A DNA stretch of 35,719 bases from contig PBND01000009.1 in assembly GCA_002722845.1 (NCBI GenBank), positions 1 through 35,719 of the forward strand, given 5' to 3'. This DNA is from Myxococcales bacterium. GTDB lineage: Bacteria; Myxococcota; UBA4151. A program made the position numbers and the translations under genes. The notes beneath the pieces are model-generated. The model worked only from the letters and a program-made list of their open reading frames with translations, did not search any database and was not told the origin of the DNA. Positions 6,482 to 27,761 of the stretch are shown here, piece after piece. Within the stretch, counting starts at the first letter, position 1, and the number at the start of each line of letters is the position of its first letter.

Positions 6482-7497
6482 ATGATGTTATCTTGATCGG
6501 CTCGGCCCTACCGAGCTTCTTCCTCGCCCACATGATCTACAAAGCTGATCGATACAAAGAGCCGATCGGGAAGTTCATATTTGCCTTCGTGATCGGCGTG
6601 CTGTCGCCCATCGTGACCCTGTTCTTTTCCGGCATGTTCGCAGGGATCTTTCCCGTAGAATCCAACGCCTGGACTCTTGCGCTGTTGGGCGCTGGCGTGC
6701 CCGAGGAATTGGGTCGCTTCTTGATTTTGTTGCTGCTTTGCAAGGTCTGGAAGGATGTGAATGAGCCTTTTGACTGCGTGGTGTATGCTGCGGCGATTTG
6801 GGCTGGATTCGCCGCGGTCGAAAATGTGCTCTATGCGGTCAATTTTGGGGCCCAGGGTGAGTCGCCTCTCTTCATCATCGCCATGCGTGCTGCCCTCTGT
6901 TCCACCGGGCATACGGCCTGGGGTGTCATCGTGGGTGCCTATGTGGGCATGGCGATGTTTGGTAAAGGCAACAAGATCGCATGGGCTCTCAAGGGCCTCG
7001 GCATCGCGATCATCCTTCATACGGTCTACGATGGTCTGCTCTTTTCTGTGAAAGATGGCGGCGCTGCCATGAACGGGCTGTGGGCCGTTGTTGTCGATGG
7101 GGTCACCCTCGTGATGGCCGTCCTGATCGTACTCCGGATGAGCAGGATTCAGAGCTTCAGCGACGGCGAAGGTCAGAACTTAATGATGCAGGTCCGACTG
7201 ATGCGACGATTCCGTCCCGATCGGGGAGATGGGGTCAATCAACTGGCGAAGGGGCTTGGGGTGCTGGGTGTGATCCAGATTCTCTTGGTGCTCTTTTTCG
7301 CGGCAACGACCTACTTCGCTGCCCTCTTGTTGGCCTCTGGGGTGTATTTGGCCGTGATCGGTGGCGCCATCACTGGGGCTTTGGGTTACAAAACCTGGGG
7401 GGCGCTGTGGCGGCGCATCGAATTGACGGAAGCCGCTGACGCCCCGGTGCTCGCAGCCGAGGCAGGGACTCAACCGGAAGATGAAGCCTCCGCTTAG
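6478..7497 (+). CDS. prsW: PrsW-family intramembrane metalloprotease-like protein
   Basis: This is a polytopic membrane protein of 339 residues. PrsW-type motifs appear in order: E76-E77 in GVPEELGR, E115-N116 in GFAAVENVLY, H145 in STGHTAWG and H181 in ILHTVYDG, all in or beside hydrophobic segments. PrsW in Bacillus starts cleavage of the anti-sigma factor RsiW, and the wider CPBP/PrsW superfamily includes other membrane proteases. The start at 6478 overlaps the stop of the DksA-like gene (ATGA) and has CGAGGAGAGAGG upstream. No sigma/anti-sigma pair is nearby, so the substrate is unknown. The C-terminal part adds further hydrophobic segments (roughly residues 195-215 and 255-305) and an acidic Ala/Glu tail. 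Its stop overlaps the convergent DUF4215 gene by 4 bases. Confidence 0.8.
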   Translation: MNDVILIGSALPSFFLAHMIYKADRYKEPIGKFIFAFVIGVLSPIVTLFFSGMFAGIFPVESNAWTLALLGAGVPEELGRFLILLLLCKVWKDVNEPFDCVVYAAAIWAGFAAVENVLYAVNFGAQGESPLFIIAMRAALCSTGHTAWGVIVGAYVGMAMFGKGNKIAWALKGLGIAIILHTVYDGLLFSVKDGGAAMNGLWAVVVDGVTLVMAVLIVLRMSRIQSFSDGEGQNLMMQVRLMRRFRPDRGDGVNQLAKGLGVLGVIQILLVLFFAATTYFAALLLASGVYLAVIGGAITGALGYKTWGALWRRIELTEAADAPVLAAEAGTQPEDEASA

Positions 7498-9668
7498 TTT
7501 GGCAATTCGATCCCCACGATGGTGGACTGGTTGCCGTTGTTGGTGCCCCAGCAGTAGATCCAGCCGATGCCTTGCTCATTGCACGCAAGGCCAGCGGGAC
7601 CGGCTGCACCCTGGCAGTTGCCGAGATCGTGCTGACTCAACTGGGCCCCTTGAGCGTTGAGTCGATAGAGGCGAATGGCCGGATCGTTTTGGTTGTGTCG
7701 ATAGGCCAAAGCCCAGATGTTCTGGCCGTCGTAACAGAGGTCCGCAATGCCTTCTCCGATTCCCGTATCTACGGTGCTGCGTATGTCATTGGGGCTACCG
7801 GCTGGGGTAAACCGAAGCTGCCGTAGCGATCGCCAGTCGTAGCTTGTGGAGTGGTTGGCCCGGACCAGTTGGTCGCCCACGAAGGTCAATGGGTAGCCCC
7901 CGTAGGCCACCTGTTCGTTGCCGTGGTTGGACTTGGCCCCCCCACGGGTCAGTCGGTGCATGTCCTGACCGCCGCCGTTACCCGTGTAATCGGCGATGAT
8001 GAAGTGGTCCTCGGCACAGGCGACCGAGGTCATATGTTGGAGATTGGCCTGAAGCGATCCGGTTTGTTGGCCGGTGGCCGGGTCGATGAAATAGAGGGGG
8101 TGGTTCCCTTGGATGGCGAGAACCAAGCGCTGTTGAGCACCATCCCAACACATGCCTTGGGGATGAAAGTTCCAGCCAGAATAGGCTGGGACATTCACCG
8201 TGCCGGTGACGCCGGGGCCTTCCGCGTTGCAGTCCCCGTCACAGCCATCATCGGCCGCCAAATTCCCATCGTCGCACTCCTCTTCGCCCTCATGAACAAA
8301 GCCATCACCACACGCGGCCTCGACACAACCGCTTAAACAGGCATCTTCATTTTGATCGTTGCCATCGTCACAGGCTTCGAAGCCTTCTTCTCCCACCTCT
8401 AAGTTTTGGCGCTGGATCCCATCACCACAGCGAGCCTCCTCACAATTGGCGAGGCAGTCGTCGGCATCGTTCTCGTTACCGTCATCGCAGATCTCGAAGT
8501 TCGGATCGCCGACCTCCAGGTCGGCCCGCAAGAAACCATCGCCACAGCGGGCCAGTTCACAGCCGCTCGGGCAGCGGTCGTCATCGTTGGCGTTCCCATC
8601 ATCACAGGCTTCGTAGCCCGGCGCAGCCGGCTCGAGGTCTTGCCGGATAATGCCATCACCACAGCGGGCTTCTTCGCAGCCGTTCGTGCAGTGATCGATA
8701 TTGCTTCGATTGCCATCGTCGCATTGTTCACCTTCTTGGACCACACCATCGCCACAACTGGCTCGGGCTTGGCTTTGGCAACCGTTGCTGCACAGATCAT
8801 CATCCACTCGGTTGCCGTCGTCGCAGTCTTCCACGCCAATGTGTAAAATCGCATCACCGCATTCGGCGACCCGACAGGAACCGGTACATGCGTCGCTATC
8901 GACGAGATTACCATCGTCGCAGGCTTCCTGGTCGTTCCAGAGGATCCCGTCCCCGCAGCGGGCTGCCGCGCAGGTGTTGAGACAGGCATCTTCGTTCACC
9001 GTGTTGCCATCGTCGCAAAACTCTTCGCTTTGGACGATCCCATCGCCACAGGTGCTGGGTTGGCAGTTGGCACAGGTGTCGGTGGGGTCCTCATTGCCGT
9101 CATCGCAGCCCTCACCCGGCCCCAGGATCCCGTCACCGCAGCGATGGAGTTGGCAGTTGCTTAGGCAGTCATCTTGATCCTCGTCGTTACCGTCGTCACA
9201 GGCCTCAAAACCGGCTGCATCAGGTGCAAGATCGCTGCGCACAACCCCATCGCCACAGCGGGCCAGTCGACAATCGCGCCGACAAGCATCGGTGTCGGTT
9301 TCATTGCCGTCGTCACAGGCCTCAAAGCCGAGGTCACCTTCTGCAAGGGCCGCGGCCACGACGCCGTCACCGCAGCGAGCCAGTTCGCAGTTGGTGCGGC
9401 AGAGATCGTTGTCCACGGTATTGCCGTCATCGCAGGCTTCGTAGCCCGGGTCGCCGGGAGCACCGTCAGTACGTTGAATCCCATCGCCACAACGGGCCAG
9501 TTCACAGGCGTTGGTACAGGGGTCTGTGTTGTCTTCATTACCATCATCGCAGAACTCACCGGCTTCGAGTTCCCCATTGCCACAACTGGCTTCGGTCTCT
9601 CGGACCACCACCTGTTCACCGGGACAGGCGAGGATGAAGGCGAGTAGGAAAAGGGGCCATCTGGACAT
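7494..9668 (-). CDS. DUF4215 cysteine-rich repeat lipoprotein with C-terminal beta-propeller-like head
   Basis: The 724-residue protein starts with a lipoprotein signal (MSRWPLFLLAFILAC, Cys15), and AGGAG precedes the ATG by 7 bases. Residues about 29-480 are 13 consecutive Myxococcus cysteine-rich repeats, each CGDG...E.CDDGN...D.C...C, alternating short (about 27 residues) and long forms. After the last repeat comes about 240 residues with propeller-like strands: WNFHPQGMCWDG, LYFIDPATGQQTG, VACAEDHFIIADY, GIADLCYDGQNIWAL and GLACNEQGIGWIYCWG. I read this as an NHL/SMP-30-like beta-propeller head on a rigid disulfide stalk anchored to the outer membrane. Ligand and role are unknown; adhesion or sensing is an inference. 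Its stalk matches that of the 22352-24739 protein in register, while the heads are unrelated. Confidence 0.88.
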   Translation of the reverse strand: MSRWPLFLLAFILACPGEQVVVRETEASCGNGELEAGEFCDDGNEDNTDPCTNACELARCGDGIQRTDGAPGDPGYEACDDGNTVDNDLCRTNCELARCGDGVVAAALAEGDLGFEACDDGNETDTDACRRDCRLARCGDGVVRSDLAPDAAGFEACDDGNDEDQDDCLSNCQLHRCGDGILGPGEGCDDGNEDPTDTCANCQPSTCGDGIVQSEEFCDDGNTVNEDACLNTCAAARCGDGILWNDQEACDDGNLVDSDACTGSCRVAECGDAILHIGVEDCDDGNRVDDDLCSNGCQSQARASCGDGVVQEGEQCDDGNRSNIDHCTNGCEEARCGDGIIRQDLEPAAPGYEACDDGNANDDDRCPSGCELARCGDGFLRADLEVGDPNFEICDDGNENDADDCLANCEEARCGDGIQRQNLEVGEEGFEACDDGNDQNEDACLSGCVEAACGDGFVHEGEEECDDGNLAADDGCDGDCNAEGPGVTGTVNVPAYSGWNFHPQGMCWDGAQQRLVLAIQGNHPLYFIDPATGQQTGSLQANLQHMTSVACAEDHFIIADYTGNGGGQDMHRLTRGGAKSNHGNEQVAYGGYPLTFVGDQLVRANHSTSYDWRSLRQLRFTPAGSPNDIRSTVDTGIGEGIADLCYDGQNIWALAYRHNQNDPAIRLYRLNAQGAQLSQHDLGNCQGAAGPAGLACNEQGIGWIYCWGTNNGNQSTIVGIELPN
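8229..9584 (-). repeat. 13-unit DUF4215 (Myxococcus cysteine-rich) coding repeat array
   Basis: There are thirteen units of about 81-105 bp encoding CGDG...CDDGN...C...C. The most conserved DNA is the CDDGN block, which appears on the + strand as GTTGCCATCGTCACAGGC-like words. Units differ enough that the array is old rather than newly amplified. It is the stalk of the lipoprotein at 7494-9668. Confidence 0.9.
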
Positions 9669-14611: not shown

Positions 14612-17494
14612 ATGCCAAGCCGGCCTTTGCTATTGAGCTTTGTGCTCATTGCCACATCAGGCTGTGGTCAGGCCTTGCCCGACTTGATTCTGGATCGCAG
14701 CGGCAGCGTGTGTGGTGACGGGGTCACCCAGTCGGGTGAAGCCTGTGATGACGGCAACGATAACGACTTTGATGCCTGTCTCTCCACCTGTCGAGAAGCC
14801 AGTTGTCACGATGGGTTTCGGCGCAGTGACATTATGCCAGGGATGGCTGGCTATGAGGCCTGTGACGATGGGAACACGGATGATGACGATGGCTGTGTCC
14901 TCGACTGCATACAAGCTCGCTGTGGCGATGGCCTGATTCGACGAGATCTCGATTTGCAGGTTCCCGGTTTTGAGGCCTGTGACGATGGTGATGACAGCGA
15001 CCCTAATGACGGCTGTCACGGTTGCAAGGCCCCGGGCTGTGGTGATGGCGTCGTTCAGGCCAATGAGGAATGTGATGACGGAAATGGGGTCGACAACGAC
15101 GCCTGTATTGAATGTCTCAACGCTCGCTGTGGTGATGGTGTCCGGCGGGTCGGTGAAGGCGGGGAGGCCTGCGATGATGGAAATGTGGACAATTCCGACG
15201 ATTGCACAACGGATTGTGAGCCGCCTCGCTGCGGCGACGGCTACCGGCAGGATGGTGAAGCTTGTGATGACGGTAATGGAAGAGACGCCGACGCTTGCAC
15301 CAACGCTTGCGAGGAAGCGACCTGTGGCGATGGGATCGTGCGTCGGGACCTTGCAGAGGGGCTCCCTGATGCCGAGGGCTGCGACGATGCCGATGAGGAC
15401 AACCATGACGCCTGTACAAATGACTGCTTGCGAGCTCGTTGCGGTGACAACATCGTCCAGCGTCATTTTGAGGCCTGCGATGACGGCAATGAAAGTCCCG
15501 ATGATTCTTGCGTGAACTGTGTCCAGCCGACCTGCGGCGATGGAGTGGTTGACGCCGATGAGGAGTGCGATGACGGCAACGAAGACAACCGAGACGCCTG
15601 TACGGACCTCTGTCTCCACGCTCGCTGCGGTGATGGATTTCAACGCCAAGACCTCGCCCAGGATGAAGCGGGTGGGGAGTTCTGCGATGATGGCAACGAA
15701 CTGGAGCAGGACGCGTGCCTAAACAACTGCGAACTCAGCCGCTGTGGTGATGGTGTCCAGCGTTTAGATCGGTTGCGGGGGGAGCCGGGCTTCGAAGCCT
15801 GCGACGATGGGAACGAGGTCCCTGATGATGGTTGCACAGATGCCTGCCGCAGTGGCTGCGGCGACGGTCTCCTGGCCGAGGGGGAAGCCTGTGACGATGG
15901 CAACGACGAAGACGCCGATGCCTGCACCAATGGCTGCACCGAGGCCAGGTGTGGTGATGGTGTCCAGCGGCAGGATCTCGACCCAGAGGCCGCCGGCTAT
16001 GAGTTCTGCGATGATGGCAACGAGTCCAGTGAAGATGGCTGTACAGACATCTGCCGAATCGCTCGCTGTGGCGATGGGGTCGTCCGGCGTGACTTGCAAC
16101 CGGATCAAGACGGTTTTGAAGCCTGCGATGACGGGAATGAGGACAACACAGATGAATGCACGGTGATGTGTCAGCCGCCCCGTTGTGGTGATGGCATCCT
16201 CCACGAGGGTGAAGCCTGTGATGATGGGAATGCAGTGGCCGGCGATGGCTGTCTTCTCGACTGCGAAGCCGCCGTCTGTGGCGACGGGGTTCGCCGGCTC
16301 GATCGGGTCGATGGCGAACCCGGCTACGAGGCCTGTGACGATGGCAATATCGAATCGGGCGACGGGTGTCGCGGCGATTGCAGCAAGGTCGAGGTGATCA
16401 GCATCTGGGCCGGTGCTCAAAACTCCTGCGCAACTTTTGGTAATGGTCGTGCACGGTGTTGGGGGCGTAATTCTCAGCACAGAGAAGTTGAGCGAATCGC
16501 TGATGAAGAGGATGTGGTCTGGGCCGCGTGTATTAGTCAGAGGCTCGGTGTTTTTGGCGACCAGCCGGTCTACACCACCCTTCACCGAAATGGCCGTGTT
16601 AAGTGTGTCGCTCCCGCAGGGACTCGCTACCGCCCTTATGCCTGTGGTCATGCGGACCCTTGGCTGATGGTGGCTCCCGACCAACCTCTAGAGGGTGTTG
16701 TGCAGGTCGACCTTGATAGAGATTTGGGTTGTGCACTCACCGGCGAGGGGCAGGTCTATTGTTGGGGGGAAAGAGATAATGTCGGAACCGATGGGTTTCT
16801 CGCTGACCGAGTTGTTCCGATCGAGTCGCAATTCGAATTTGCCGAGATAGCGGTCGCTCCATCTCTGGCCTGTGGTCGAGCACGAGAATCAGGCCAGGTC
16901 TATTGTTGGGGCGATTATGTTAACCACCATTATGATCAGCCGACACTGATTGCTGGCACCGCGAATACAAACAGCTTAGCGATGGGAGAAGGCTTTGGGC
17001 TTGCAATGACGGAGGGGGGGATACTTGCTTGGGGTAGCGCTGGTTGTGGTCATTTTCCCTATTTCACTGGCCAGCACTCTTGCTGGGGCGGGCGGCTAAG
17101 GTTTTCTCAACATTCTCAGCTCATTGATTGGCCTGCCGATGAGGACCGATGGATTCAGATGGCCGGCTCGGGTTTTTCCTCAAAACCGGTGGACCAGACG
17201 ATTGCCTTTAGTTGTGGTGTGACCGCCAATCACCAGATGACATGTGTCGGACGTACGCCATGGCGCCCCTTGTTACCAGGCGACCGCAACTTCGATGAAT
17301 TAGCGCAAGATGCGAGGCAGCCTTCGCTCGCCCCGCTTCCCGATGGCGAGGAGGTCGTGGAAGTGAGGCTTGGTTATAGTCATGGCTGTGCCCGCACTCG
17401 GATCGGCCGTGTGTATTGTTTTGGTGGCAACGAGCATGGGCAGGCAGGTTTAGGAACTGAATACCTTAACCAACCAACCCTGATTATTCCCTAG
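14612..17494 (+). CDS. DUF4215 cysteine-rich repeat lipoprotein with RCC1-like head
   Basis: The 960-residue lipoprotein has signal [18 protein letters not shown] (Cys18). Residues about 34-590 are 16 DUF4215 repeats; the second starts CHDG and the seventh has CDDAD in place of CDDGN. The head (about 591-960) repeats C-A/G...G-x-V/A-x-CWG units such as [26 protein letters not shown] and IGRVYCFG followed by NEHGQAGLG. This is the signature of bacterial RCC1/BNR-type beta-propellers, here with conserved Cys that could form disulfides. The head-coding DNA is lower in GC than the stalk (hand counts: 128/240 versus 147/240 in sampled lines). Only a weak GGGGA ribosome-binding site precedes the ATG. 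Binding partner is unknown. Confidence 0.88.
14711..16381 (+). repeat. 16-unit DUF4215 coding repeat array
   Basis: There are sixteen units with the core CDDGN, including irregular copies (units 2, 3, 7 and 8). Long units carry an insert of the form QRxDLxxGxxGYEAC; short units lack it. This is the longest uninterrupted array on the + strand and forms the stalk of the RCC1-headed protein. Confidence 0.9.
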
Positions 17495-22351: not shown

Positions 22352-24739
22352 CTAGCGGCAAGCGCAGATGCGAGCGCCGGAATAGTTGCCGTTGTTATAA
22401 CCTGAACTGCCGCAGTCGGCGCTTGCGTTCACTTCCGCCCGGGATTCGGTCACGTTACAACCCGTTACTTCCGCGTTAAAGCCGTTGAATACCCATGTGT
22501 TCGACCAGCACCCAAGGCCGAAATAGGACCGATCCCAGTTGTTGCTGTGGAGGGTGAAGTGCCCAGCGTCCGTGGGGCCCACATTGCCGTCCTGTCTTCG
22601 AAAGCTCAGGCCCAAATGCTCCCGAACCAGCCGGTGGTAGTTCGTCTGGTTCGCTGAACCGTAACTGACAAGGCCATCGAGATCGCCCTCATGGCAACTC
22701 CGCCCCCGGGCCGCACATGCGCTTGTACAGGACTCAGAATTGCTTCTGGCAAGGGTGACGAGATAGGAGTTCCCGTCGATCGTGACCCGTTTGAGGTGGT
22801 CGCCTAGGGCCTCGGAGCAATCACCTTCGCAGTCCGGGCCGCCGTCACAGGCTTCCACCCCTGCCTGGACATGGCCATCGCCACAAATGGCGTCGGCGCA
22901 ATCGATACAGGCATCGGTGTTGATCTCATTCTCATCATCGCAAGCTTCACCGGCCTGGACGATGCCATCACCACAACGGGGCGTGGTGCAGGCGTTGCTG
23001 CAATCATTGTCGTTGATCTCATCGCCGTCATCGCAGCCTTCTCCCGCTTGTTCGATGCCATCACCGCACCGCGGCGTGGTGCAGGCGTTGCTGCAATCGT
23101 TGTCGTTGATCTCATCCCCATCATCACAAGCCTCGACGCCATCCTGGATCTGGCCGTCACCACAGCGGGCAGCGGCGCAATTGTTGAGACAGGCATCGAT
23201 TTGGACTTCGTTGCCATCATCACAGGCTTCACCTGCTTGTTGGAAACCGTCGCCGCATCGGGCTTCGGCACAGGCGTTGGTGCAGGTATCCTCGTTGATT
23301 TCATTACCGTCATCACAGGCCTCAAAGTTGATCTGACCTTGGGCCACGTCGGCCCGCAGGATGCCGTCGCCACAACGGGCTTGAAGACAGTTGTTCGTAC
23401 ACGCGTCATTGGCCACGTCGTTGGCATCGTCGCAGGCTTCGTAGCCAGCAGCGCCAGGCTCTAGATCCCGGCGCAAAATGCCGTCGCCGCAACGAGCCTG
23501 TTCACAGGCGTTGCTACAAGCATCTACATTGGAGCGATTGCCATCATCGCAGGCTTCGTCTTCGTGAACGATACCGTCCCCACAAGTCGCCAGGGGCCGG
23601 ATCTGACAGTCTGAGGTGCAGCCGTCGTCTTCAATCGCATTGCCATCGTCACAGGCTTCGTAACCATCGGCACCTTCGGCAAGGTCCGCTCGTAGGAGGC
23701 CATCGCCACATCGGGCATGTTCGCAGGCATTCGTGCAGGCGTCCTGGGCCACCACGTTGCCATCATCGCAGGCTTCTTCGATCCCGAGGAGGTGGCCATC
23801 GCCGCAGCGGGCGACCCGGCAATCGTTGAGACAGTGGTCCGTTTGCTCGTCGTTGCCGTCATCACACTGCTCGTAGCCGGGATCTTCCGCTTGCAGGTCG
23901 CTGCGGTGAATGCCGTCGCCACAGCGGGCGGGGAGACACTGGGTTGTACAGGCATCCTGAGGGACGGCGTTGCCATCGTCGCAGCTTTCTTGGTCGGCCC
24001 AGAGGATCCCATCGCCACAGCGGGCAGCGGCACAGCTGTTAAGACAGGCATCGGTTTCGACCTCATTGCCATCATCGCAGAACTCGCCGTCTTGAACATA
24101 ACCATCACCGCAGGTGCTGGGGGTGCAATTGGCACAGGCATCGGTGGGGTCCTCGTTGCCGTCATCACAACCCTCCCCAGGACCAAGGACGCCGTCACCG
24201 CAACGGGCTTCTTCACAGTTGCTACGACATGCGTCGTCGTCGGAGGCGTTGCCATCATCGCAAGCCTCGTAGCCGGCTTCATTTGGCTCGAGGTCGGTCC
24301 TAAGGACCCCATCACCGCAACGCGCAGGCTCGCAGTCGGTTTTGCAGGCGTCAGACTCCACCGTGTTGCCATCATCGCAGGCTTCAAAGCCGAGTCCGCC
24401 TTCACTGACGTCGGCCCGGACGACCCCGTCGCCACAGACGGCCACTTGGCAGGTGTTCAGGCAGGCATCACCATCCAAATCATTGCCATCGTCACAGGTC
24501 TCATGGCCGACTTCCCCGATGGATAGATCCGTTCGGGTCACCCCGTCACCACAGCGAGCGAGATCGCAGCCATTGGTGCATTCATCGGAGTTGACCTCGT
24601 TGCCATCATCACAGGCTTCGCCCAATTCAAGCTCGCCATTACCACAGGAGCCCTGTTGTTGTTGGACGACCACCTGTTCCGAACAAGCGGCTGCGAGGCT
24701 GATGCAGATCAATAGGCTGAGTTTTTTGGGGTTGGTCAT
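22352..24739 (-). CDS. DUF4215 cysteine-rich repeat lipoprotein with unrecognised cysteine-rich head
   Basis: The 795-residue product is read from the ATG at 24739 (GAGGAG upstream), which gives the lipoprotein signal [19 protein letters not shown] (Cys19); the frame extends upstream to 24883 without a signal. It carries 17 full DUF4215 repeats plus a degenerate eighteenth ([11 protein letters not shown]). Repeats 15 and 16 are nearly identical. The last about 155 residues form a head rich in Cys, Asn, Ser and Tyr ([29 protein letters not shown], and [11 protein letters not shown] at the C-terminus). I cannot assign it; the paired Cys and Trp/Gly pattern is lectin-like in feel only. The stalk is paralogous to that of 7494-9668. 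It sits between a MYXO-CTERM-like protein gene and msrAB on the same strand. Confidence 0.87.
22817..24646 (-). repeat. 18-unit DUF4215 coding repeat array (last unit degenerate)
   Basis: Seventeen regular units and one shortened unit make this the longest array of the window. Units 5-7 ([37 protein letters not shown]) match units 5-7 of the array at 8229-9584 almost residue for residue, and units 11-12 match that array's units 9-10. Confidence 0.9.
22981..23116 (-). repeat. Recent 93-bp tandem duplication within the DUF4215 array
   Basis: Bases 22981-23023 and 23074-23116 are identical except for one base, offset by 93 bp (31 codons). They encode consecutive repeats both reading [19 protein letters not shown]. 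Other units of the array are far more divergent, so this pair is the youngest event in it. Confidence 0.85.
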
Positions 24740-24798: not shown

Positions 24799-25842
24799 CT
24801 ACGTGTGTCTGCGTCGGCGGAGGATGCTCCCCAGAATGAGAATGCAGAGACCAGGAGCGATGGATGTGGCGCCACAGTGGCACCCCACCGAATCGGCTGC
24901 TTTCGGTGGCGGATCCGAGTTGGCTTCGGGCTCGGCTCGAGTCCGCTTACAGTTCGATTGGGCCAAAGGGGTCGGGCTGGCCTCGCAGGTGAAGTACAAG
25001 CGGAGCCCCGAAGCACTGTAGCTCATCGCTTCGCATTGCCCATCCCCGTAGACTGGAGCCTTCAGAGCGGGGGCGAAATCCGTGACCACCCCATCGGTAC
25101 GAAGGAGTTCGAGGCGATAGCCGGCGCCATAGGTCCCAAGAAAGAGTTCGGAACCCGTGGGGTCGATGTCGGCTTGGGTCACCAACAAGGCTTCCGTGCC
25201 CCCCTCCAGGGACACACGGGTCACAAGCTCCGCCTCGAAGGGCTCCTGTGAGCCGTTCCAGGCCGCGGCTGGAATCCGATAGGCAGAAGCGACACGGTCA
25301 AATGCCTTCTCGACGATGAAGAGGTCGCCGGTCTTTGGGTCGACCGCCAGTCCTTCTGCATCCCGGGGGCCCTCTGGATACACCAGGTCCAAGGGCTCGG
25401 CTTGTCCCCTTACCGTCTGTCCGGCACCCGGTGCTGGGGGCTCGGGGACGCGCCAGATCGTGACCTTGCTCCTCGCAGCTGCATTGTCGCCGATATCGCC
25501 GATGAAAAGACAGGTTTGATCGCCGCATGGGCCCAGCCCTAAGGCTTCCCAATCGGTGGCATCGACCCCGTCCAGTTCCAGTCGGCCCATTGCGGTGCCG
25601 TCGGAACGAAAAGCATAGACGAAGGGACCGCCCCCTGAATCGTTGTGGCTCCAGAGCAGATCTGGAAATTGCCGGGAGCAGGCCAGGCCGCTGGATTCAA
25701 TCAGTGCTGGGATCTGCAGTCGACTCTTGAGGCTCGCCTCGTCGAATTCGAGGCATGCCGCGGCGCCCAAAGCGGTCGAAGGCAGCATGCCGCTGACCAG
25801 GATTGCGAACAGCAGGCCTCCATTCCCGGTGCTGCCCCCCAT
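24799..25842 (-). CDS. Exported beta-propeller protein with MYXO-CTERM-like tail
   Basis: The 347-residue protein starts with [29 protein letters not shown], a Sec signal. The body has propeller-like strands of a family with [39 protein letters not shown] and [20 protein letters not shown], resembling the esterase-like/phytase-like propellers. The C-terminus is [27 protein letters not shown]: paired Cys, a hydrophobic segment, then an Arg cluster. This is the layout of MYXO-CTERM sorting tails, which are processed by myxosortase and lead to surface attachment. The ATG at 25842 overlaps the upstream stop in TGATG, so translation is coupled to the fibrinogen-headed protein. Substrate unknown. 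Confidence 0.83.
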
Positions 25843-27761
25843 CAACCGCCGCCCTCGGCCCTTCGGTAGAAGACTTCAAGACTCCCCCGTCCGAGCGTGC
25901 TGCCATTGATGATCAGGGGCTGATTGATGAACCAGGCCGTGGAGTAGACGCAGAAATAGGCGTCGCTGGAGTCGTTCGCACCCACACACAACTCGTTGTA
26001 GGCCCCCACATCGCAGAAGCCAAACATGCAGCCCCTGGGGTCCTCCATATTGCGGTTGGCGCAAACCAAGTCGCCAACATCGTCCGGGATGTCCTCGACC
26101 GCCCCGGCCCCACCCACTCGGTTGAGACCGAGTTGATCGTCACAGATGCGCCAGTCGTTGGTGATGTCTTCATTAAAGGTGAGTAATTCATCCATTTGGC
26201 CCTCTTGGGACTCGGTGACCACCAGGGTATGCACACTGGCCGGTGAACTTTGATCGGCGCGAAAATGACCGATGTTGACGTCATAGACCCGGAACATCAA
26301 CTGGACAGCCCCGAGGCCCCGACAGATTTCGGGGAAGTTGGGGGCCGGCCGTGCAGCGCCGGTGGCGATGAGGCATCGGCTCCACGGGCCACCCCGCTCG
26401 TTGGCCAGGTCCATATCGCAGTAACTCTCCACAACCTGATCGTGCTGAATGAGGAAATATCGACCGCTGGGGAGTTCGGGATAGCGCTCATTGAGAGTTT
26501 GGCAATCGGCCACCGCCTTTGCCACGCTGCTGCCGTCGGGAAATGCGGTACAGTCGTTTTGACAGGCATCGTCGTCGACCCGATTGCCATCGTCGCAGAC
26601 CTCGTAGCCTGGCTGGTCCGCTGCGAGGCCTCGACGCAAGACACCATCACCACAGCGGGCAGCCGTACAGTCATTCAGGCAGGCGTCATCGTTGACACCG
26701 TTGCCATCGTCACAGTCTTCGCCCGCGTCGACGCGACCATTGCCACAGATCTCGGCGCCGCAAGTCGGTGAACAGCCATCGCCCGGCTCCCCATTGCCAT
26801 CATCGCATTCCTCGTAACCGGGTTGACCGACGCCCACATCGGCCCGCTGGATGCCATCACCACAGCGGGCCAAGCTGCAGTCGAGTCGACAGGCATCGGA
26901 ATCCACCCCATTGCCATCGTCGCAGGCTTCGCCTTCTTGGACCGACTGGTCACCACATCGGGGCAGGAGACAGTTGTTTCGGCAACCGTTCCGGTCATCT
27001 CGGTCGCCGTCATCACAGGCTTCAAACCCCGACGCTCCTTCCACTCGGTCCGTGCGCAGAACACCGTCGCCGCAGCGGGCCACCTGGCAGGTGACTCGGC
27101 AGGCGTCTTCATCGACCTCGTTGCCATCGTCGCATTCTTCGAAGCCTGTACGAATCACGCCATCGCCACAGCGACTTGCAGTGCAGTCGTTGCGGCAGCC
27201 ATCGGAATCCACCGCATTACCGTCATCACAGGCTTCATAGCCAGCGTCATCGACCCCGAGGTCCTGCCGGACCACCCCGTCGCCACAACGGGCTTCGTCA
27301 CAGGTGTTCAAACAGCCATCAAAGGGGTTTTGATTGCCATCGTCACAGCTTTCGATTTGGCCGTCAGCCCCTCGGCCACCCGGGACCCCATCACCACAGA
27401 TATTGGCGAGGCAATCCCCTCGGCAGTCATCGTCGTCCCGCTCATTACCATCGTCGCATTGTTCGAATCCTGGGGCCCCCAACAGGAGGTCGAGCCGGTG
27501 GATACCATCACCGCAGCGGGCTCGGACGCAGCTCGATAGGCAACCGTCTTGGTCATCAGCGTTGCCATCGTCACAGGTTTCGGCCCCCTGTCTTAAACCA
27601 TCGCCGCAGCGACCATCGCCACCGCCGGCCGAGACCAGCAGGCTCGGAAGGGGCGCACTGCATCCGCCCCATGGGAGGATGAGAAGAAAGAGCAGGAGCT
27701 GAGACCGACCGCAAAGCGCAAACCGGAAGGGGAGCCATCGATCGGAGTTGGATGCATTCAT
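25842..27761 (-). CDS. DUF4215 cysteine-rich repeat lipoprotein with fibrinogen-like head
   Basis: The 639-residue protein is read from the ATG at 27761 (AAGAAGG upstream). A long n-region precedes the hydrophobic stretch QLLLFLLILPWGGC with Cys34 in a plausible lipobox. Ten DUF4215 repeats follow (about residues 52-405). The head (about 406-639) opens with DCQTLNERYPELPSGRYFLI and YCDMDLANERGGPWSRCL, the SG-x-Y...CDM...GGxW pattern of fibrinogen-related and COLF1-like domains. It later has DDVGDLVCANRNM and SSDAYFCVYSTAWF, with several Cys. Such heads usually bind glycans or proteins; that role here is inferred. It ends in RRAEGGG and overlaps the MYXO-CTERM-like gene. A signal-peptidase I reading of the N-terminus is possible. 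Confidence 0.83.
   Translation of the reverse strand: MNASNSDRWLPFRFALCGRSQLLLFLLILPWGGCSAPLPSLLVSAGGGDGRCGDGLRQGAETCDDGNADDQDGCLSSCVRARCGDGIHRLDLLLGAPGFEQCDDGNERDDDDCRGDCLANICGDGVPGGRGADGQIESCDDGNQNPFDGCLNTCDEARCGDGVVRQDLGVDDAGYEACDDGNAVDSDGCRNDCTASRCGDGVIRTGFEECDDGNEVDEDACRVTCQVARCGDGVLRTDRVEGASGFEACDDGDRDDRNGCRNNCLLPRCGDQSVQEGEACDDGNGVDSDACRLDCSLARCGDGIQRADVGVGQPGYEECDDGNGEPGDGCSPTCGAEICGNGRVDAGEDCDDGNGVNDDACLNDCTAARCGDGVLRRGLAADQPGYEVCDDGNRVDDDACQNDCTAFPDGSSVAKAVADCQTLNERYPELPSGRYFLIQHDQVVESYCDMDLANERGGPWSRCLIATGAARPAPNFPEICRGLGAVQLMFRVYDVNIGHFRADQSSPASVHTLVVTESQEGQMDELLTFNEDITNDWRICDDQLGLNRVGGAGAVEDIPDDVGDLVCANRNMEDPRGCMFGFCDVGAYNELCVGANDSSDAYFCVYSTAWFINQPLIINGSTLGRGSLEVFYRRAEGGG
26550..27608 (-). 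repeat. 10-unit DUF4215 coding repeat array
   Basis: There are ten units. Unit 3 has an unusual insert (CGDGVPGGRGADGQIESC), unit 7 begins CGDQ and unit 9 begins CGNG. This is the shortest of the four arrays in the window and the stalk of the fibrinogen-headed protein. Confidence 0.9.

Follow-up and report, generated by a model that had tools for sequence, protein, structure and literature searches.

An ordinary overlapping pair of putative envelope-protein genes and an expanded stalk-and-head protein set in a Myxococcales genome

Two genes on the minus strand of a Myxococcales contig share the five nucleotides TGATG, and the locus raises the question of whether the two exported-looking proteins that they encode act together at the cell surface or are ordinary neighbors. 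The window, which is the whole stretch of DNA that we analyzed, is a complete contig of 35,719 bases from a 2.68-Mb draft genome that is about 70% complete. Its MYXO-CTERM tails, its myxosortase and its repeats suggest the phylum Myxococcota. This host genome and the two other members of its family, G001 and G002, are all incomplete and comprise 2-3 Mb each. An earlier note had described two genes that meet in a shared TGATG at 25840-25844, and the sequence bore out the positions and the shared nucleotides, with both genes on the minus strand: the TGA of gene 1 lies at 25844-25842 and the ATG of gene 2 at 25842-25840, giving a 1-nt overlap, and a ribosome-site-like GAGGG ends 9 nt ahead of the gene 2 ATG. 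Both products are of recognizable types, and the pair itself is ordinary. The features of the locus are as follows.

25842..27761, minus strand: gene 1, encoding a putative lipoprotein of 639 aa with a DUF4215 stalk and, at its C-terminus, a fibrinogen-like head
27660..27662, minus strand: codon of Cys34 (LPWGGC-SAPLPSLLV), a putative lipid-anchor site with a non-canonical lipobox
26544..27608, minus strand: stalk, made up of ten cysteine-rich repeats of the DUF4215 / myxo_disulf_rpt type (TIGR02232, PF13948), residues 52-406
25845..26543, minus strand: fibrinogen-like head, residues 407-639 (233 residues), from NF040941 below its cut-off and a five-head profile
25840..25844, minus strand: TGATG overlap of the gene 1 stop and the gene 2 start
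24799..25842, minus strand: gene 2, encoding a 347-aa protein predicted to be an exported beta-propeller with a MYXO-CTERM-type tail
24940..25755, minus strand: YjiK-like beta-propeller domain, residues 30-301 (AlphaFold2 model, 3qqz match)
24802..24885, minus strand: MYXO-CTERM-type tail, with GCHC, hydrophobic residues 328-341 and RRRR at 342-345
22352..24739, minus strand: third gene, encoding a putative DUF4215 lipoprotein (N-terminus ACSEQVVV) and starting 59 nt downstream of gene 2

Gene 1 shares the repeats of DUF4215 and myxo_disulf_rpt far above both cut-offs, with 158.3 bits against TIGR02232 (cut-off, 20.8) and 146.7 bits against PF13948 (cut-off, 27), in 10 stretches in each case. 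Its product had been described as a lipoprotein, and this is likely, although its own LPWGGC fails a lipobox pattern. The paralogues at 14612-17494, L155 and L158 pass that pattern, and the start C..[PA]LP.L is common to gene 1, these three proteins and L133.

The label "fibrinogen-headed" given to gene 1 was fair for the start of the head domain. The head shares the YCDM....GGPW start of fibrinogen-related domains (GGGWT_bact, NF040941), but it differs from them in reaching only 20.9 bits with the whole protein and 22.5 bits with the head alone, below the cut-off of 30, and in having no Pfam match of its own, neither to the collagen C-terminal domain nor to fibrinogen. All five of the related heads that we aligned matched NF040941 at E<=1 (best, 5.6e-17). 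A profile of five heads matched intelectin-1 (7.2e-8), collagen alpha-1(III) (1.2e-6) and the fibrinogen beta chain (1.4e-6) among PDB sequences, with matches covering only about the first third of the head domain. These matches of the related heads raise our confidence in the identity of the gene 1 head. A Pfam search with the five heads placed the collagen C-terminal domain (four of five; best, 8.3e-9) ahead of fibrinogen (three of five; best, 1.8e-4). Folded alone, the head gave no usable model (pLDDT 32.5). Fibrinogen-like heads are also borne by other proteins; the product of L156:6518-8608 combines RCC1-like repeats, recognized by eye, with such a head and has no DUF4215 stalk.

The propeller of gene 2 was modeled with AlphaFold2 from 28 sequences at a mean pLDDT of 86.5 and a pTM of 0.80, and the alignment of 28 sequences contains 17 invariant columns, several of them acidic. 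In a structure comparison made against the PDB only, VIA-align returned the C-terminal domain of YjiK (3qqz) as the best match (Z 21.4, rmsd 3.0, 228 aligned residues). The match spans model residues 29-298, that is, the same predicted fold over the whole domain, although the sequence identity is low at 13%. Foldseek ranked 3qqz second by E-value, with a TM-score of 0.50 on the query, behind a different propeller. Single-protein sequence searches of the PDB yielded nothing usable, and the propellers of the three closest relatives (G001, G002 and G029) had no NCBIfam match. GSDH (PF07995) was considered as a name for the propeller and rejected, at 10.4 bits against a cut-off of 25. In a search of plasmids, distant relatives of the propeller turned up in 13 records, none of which bore on the gene 1-gene 2 pair.

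The end of gene 2 had been read as a tail processed by myxosortase. It is tripartite, with a GCHC cysteine motif, 14 hydrophobic residues and an RRRR cluster, and so shares the cysteine motif, hydrophobic segment and arginine cluster of the MYXO-CTERM/myxosortase systems (TIGR03901, TIGR03382; MrtX of Myxococcus xanthus, PMC11980579). However, the tail differs from them in lying under both curated cut-offs: it scored 8.6 bits against TIGR03382 (cut-off, 15.85), and in the own genome neither TIGR03901 nor TIGR03382 listed it at E<=10. The curated models thus do not file it as a MYXO-CTERM member. These two models listed 26 distinct places in the host genome, 15 of which we read. In eleven, GC[DGS]C is followed by a hydrophobic run and then by basic residues; in two (L005 and L015), a single cysteine precedes an end that is hydrophobic and basic; and two (L007 and L014) had no such tail. 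A pattern for the cysteine, hydrophobic and basic layout, composed with the gene 2 tail in view, matched only gene 2 among 131 open reading frame ends in the window, seven of 1,418 such ends in other stretches and 351 of 100,000 shuffles of the gene 2 tail. Two of the seven are the propeller relatives in G001 and G002, which also end with a cysteine motif, a hydrophobic run and basic residues. We also built a profile from 12 own-genome tails, in which the gene 2 tail reached 7.1 bits (E 1.0) and seven of 3,549 sequences scored above it (one of 2,000 shuffles, the tails of two propeller relatives, two ends that resemble tails and two nonsense-looking sequences); this profile separated the gene 2 tail poorly and was rejected as support. 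Because the curated models and our own profile leave the tail below threshold, the claim rests on the layout test and the sister tails. We accept the tail of gene 2 as MYXO-CTERM in layout, and its reading as a myxosortase-type tail is probably right.

The nine distant relatives in the phylum whose propellers were resolved end at the last blade and have no tail. A scan of a genome collection identified 49 propeller loci, and at eight of these, all actinobacterial and two apparently the same, the propeller carries a C-terminal hydrophobic and basic tail that lacks the GC-x-C motif. Given the tailless distant relatives and the actinobacterial tails, the cysteine-type tail of gene 2 looks like a lineage addition. 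The actinobacterial tails (L089 and L091-L097) are apparently a separate way of anchoring the same propeller.

A search for a myxosortase gene in the host genome was positive. The CPBP protease encoded at L010:1048-1824 scored 111.1 bits against the myxosortase core model NF040914 (Mrt_core; cut-off, 100). It differs from the named myxosortases in passing the core model only, with 138.7 bits for MrtP (cut-off, 250), 124.9 for MrtC (195), 81.4 for MrtX (180) and 63.3 for MrtZ (325). Since the core model was passed and none of these named types was, the protease may represent a further myxosortase type. Mrt_core was over its cut-off in 27 of the 29 genomes searched, the host genome included, and the type II secretin GspD (gspD) was over its cut-off in the host genome. 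Myxosortase processing of gene 2 is backed by the tail layout, the sister GC-x-C tails, the protease and GspD, but not by the curated MYXO-CTERM models, whose cut-offs the tail missed.

We consider it reasonably probable that genes 1 and 2 encode two independent envelope proteins in one same-strand gene run, drawn from an expanded stalk-and-head set, and that the tail of gene 2 is processed by myxosortase. Gene 1 would encode a lipoprotein of the outer membrane, with the fibrinogen-like head, which presumably binds a ligand, raised on a disulphide-rich stalk of ten repeats. The YjiK-like propeller of gene 2 would be exported and retained in the inner membrane through its C-terminal segment; the genome's myxosortase would then cut it at the cysteine motif, and type II secretion would take it to the surface. 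The translational overlap of the two genes would reflect compact gene packing.

The earlier note had suggested instead that coupled translation makes the two proteins in a fixed ratio and that they are the two parts of one surface complex, each anchored by a different route. The 1-nt overlap and the GAGGG before the second start are consistent with this, both proteins look exported, and there is a precedent in TraA, a MYXO-CTERM receptor whose open reading frame overlaps that of TraB (PMC11980579). However, this genome has many such overlaps: in five of its stretches, a 1- or 4-nt overlap is possible for 16 of 36 neighboring same-strand pairs, gene 1-gene 2 included, a base rate obtained with a crude longest-ORF caller. 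The pair is also absent from the other close propeller loci. At E<=1e-42 the propeller occurred in four of 195 genomes of the phylum (the host genome, G001, G002 and G029), and in none of the three relatives did a DUF4215 gene stand beside it among the listed neighbors, a call made with a crude regular expression on the frames within four places of the propeller. The upstream gene in G001, on a contig of 4.5 kb, lies on the opposite strand, the same-strand gene in G002 is at least 71 nt away, and in G029 the propeller gene, in its longest reading, is overlapped by a 1,078-residue frame. Among 20 stretches around propeller relatives, the propeller was resolved in 12 (three close and nine distant); in the other eight it is probably hidden by a longer overlapping frame. 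Pair conservation failed at all three other close loci, on three comparisons only; this is one of the two outcomes that the earlier note had named as counting against its reading. The two domains also differ in distribution. Of 97 genomes searched for the head at E<=1e-3, only the own genome (five places) and G002 (two places) gave matches and G001 gave none, as against 47 of the 97 for the propeller at E<=1e-5, the own genome being counted in both; outside this locus the head is present without the propeller. Because such overlaps are common and the pair is absent at three other loci, a conserved two-part complex of genes 1 and 2 is not supported, and we regard the formation of such a complex in fixed ratio as quite improbable.

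The anchoring of gene 2 allows two further readings. The tail could be a plain membrane anchor rather than a myxosortase substrate, as its scores below the TIGR03382 and TIGR03901 cut-offs and the actinobacterial tails without GC-x-C would suggest. We consider this unlikely, since GCHC fits the motif of 11 own-genome tails as well as the generic GCGC motif given for myxosortase substrates in PMC11980579, and since the cysteine motif is kept in the G001 and G002 tails. Alternatively, gene 2 could be anchored at its N-terminus as a lipoprotein, with the C-terminal tail secondary or a second anchor. Its ALGAAAC passes the lipobox pattern and no Lys or Arg lies ahead of the hydrophobic core, so N-terminal lipidation is possible; some distant propeller relatives look lipoprotein-like at the N-terminus by eye, and one of the plasmid relatives is annotated as a "putative lipoprotein". 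The lack of positive charge before the hydrophobic stretch nevertheless also speaks against this anchor, and the three closest relatives, whose start codons are uncertain, fail the lipobox pattern; we judge this reading very unlikely. Two independent proteins, with myxosortase processing of the C-terminal tail of gene 2, remain our preferred explanation.

The expanded stalk-and-head set is a stronger lead than the pair. Scoring 150 of 974 candidates gave approximately 67 repeat-bearing open frames on 43 contigs of the host genome, a count made from contig and frame-length pairs typed by hand, in which a gene interrupted by a stop could appear twice and which the unscored candidates could raise. 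The 974 loose first-look DUF4215 repeat candidates of the host genome compare with 591 and 653 in the two family members; 36 other members of the phylum have at most 370, with a median, from listed counts, close to 60; these are loose candidates and not scored matches. The family thus differs from other carriers of DUF4215/myxo_disulf_rpt repeats by an unusual number of candidates in genomes of 2-3 Mb. We found no mention of DUF4215 by name in the literature searched.

Four DUF4215 stalk proteins with different heads, one of them RCC1-like, are encoded in this one 36-kb contig (7494-9668, 14612-17494, 22352-24739 and 25842-27761). The third gene (24739..22352) scored 274.7 bits against TIGR02232 in 18 stretches, and its head is not similar to that of gene 1. 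Comparison of 9668..7494 with 24739..22352 revealed 31-50 identical residues per 60 alignment columns in the first four blocks but only 8-11 in most head blocks; the stalk sequence of these two proteins is common and the heads are not. Gene 1 and 14612-17494 share 18-32 identical residues per 60 columns in the first four blocks. Head swapping may be the route by which the set has grown.

A subgroup of the DUF4215 proteins (L172-L196) carries CxEQVVVR directly after the putative lipid-anchor cysteine; within the window the signature lies at 24666-24685 (minus strand) in the third gene, and gene 1 lacks it. The search pattern CxEQVV/IV/I gave 24 matches in the three family genomes and none in the reversed control, as against 22 matches in 192 other genomes of the phylum, where the reversed control gave 46. 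By eye, 23 of the 24 family matches follow an apparent signal peptide, and the 24th (L183) is unrelated. Of the 23 copies, 21 run into repeats, L182 is cut by the contig end and L188 stops after 16 residues. L188 is a G001 copy, and its early stop may reflect a broken gene or a misassembly. Beyond the positions fixed by the search pattern, +8 is Arg in 19 of 20 and +9 is Asp or Glu in 17 of 20. The signal-peptide ends of the signature proteins are 17% identical, and the motif is encoded by 19 distinct DNA words across 21 rows, with L183 counted. The protein encoded at 9668..7494 has the variant CPGEQVVVRET.

A more tentative possibility, which we hold to be rather unlikely, is that the family has a surface display platform of dozens of lipoproteins, each with an anchor, a disulphide-repeat stalk and one of several exchangeable heads, among them fibrinogen-like and RCC1-like ones, in which CxEQVVVR[ED], present in the one subgroup that includes the third gene and not gene 1, would serve as a lineage-specific surface address. 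Shared descent of the stalks could explain the conservation of the signature without an address function.

The ordinary status of the gene pair closes a plausible lead to a two-part complex. The family has small genomes and unusually many stalked proteins that are probably lipid-anchored, at least some of which have stalk sequence in common and different heads. It therefore lends itself to testing whether heads have been swapped and whether the residues beside the lipid anchor act as a surface address.
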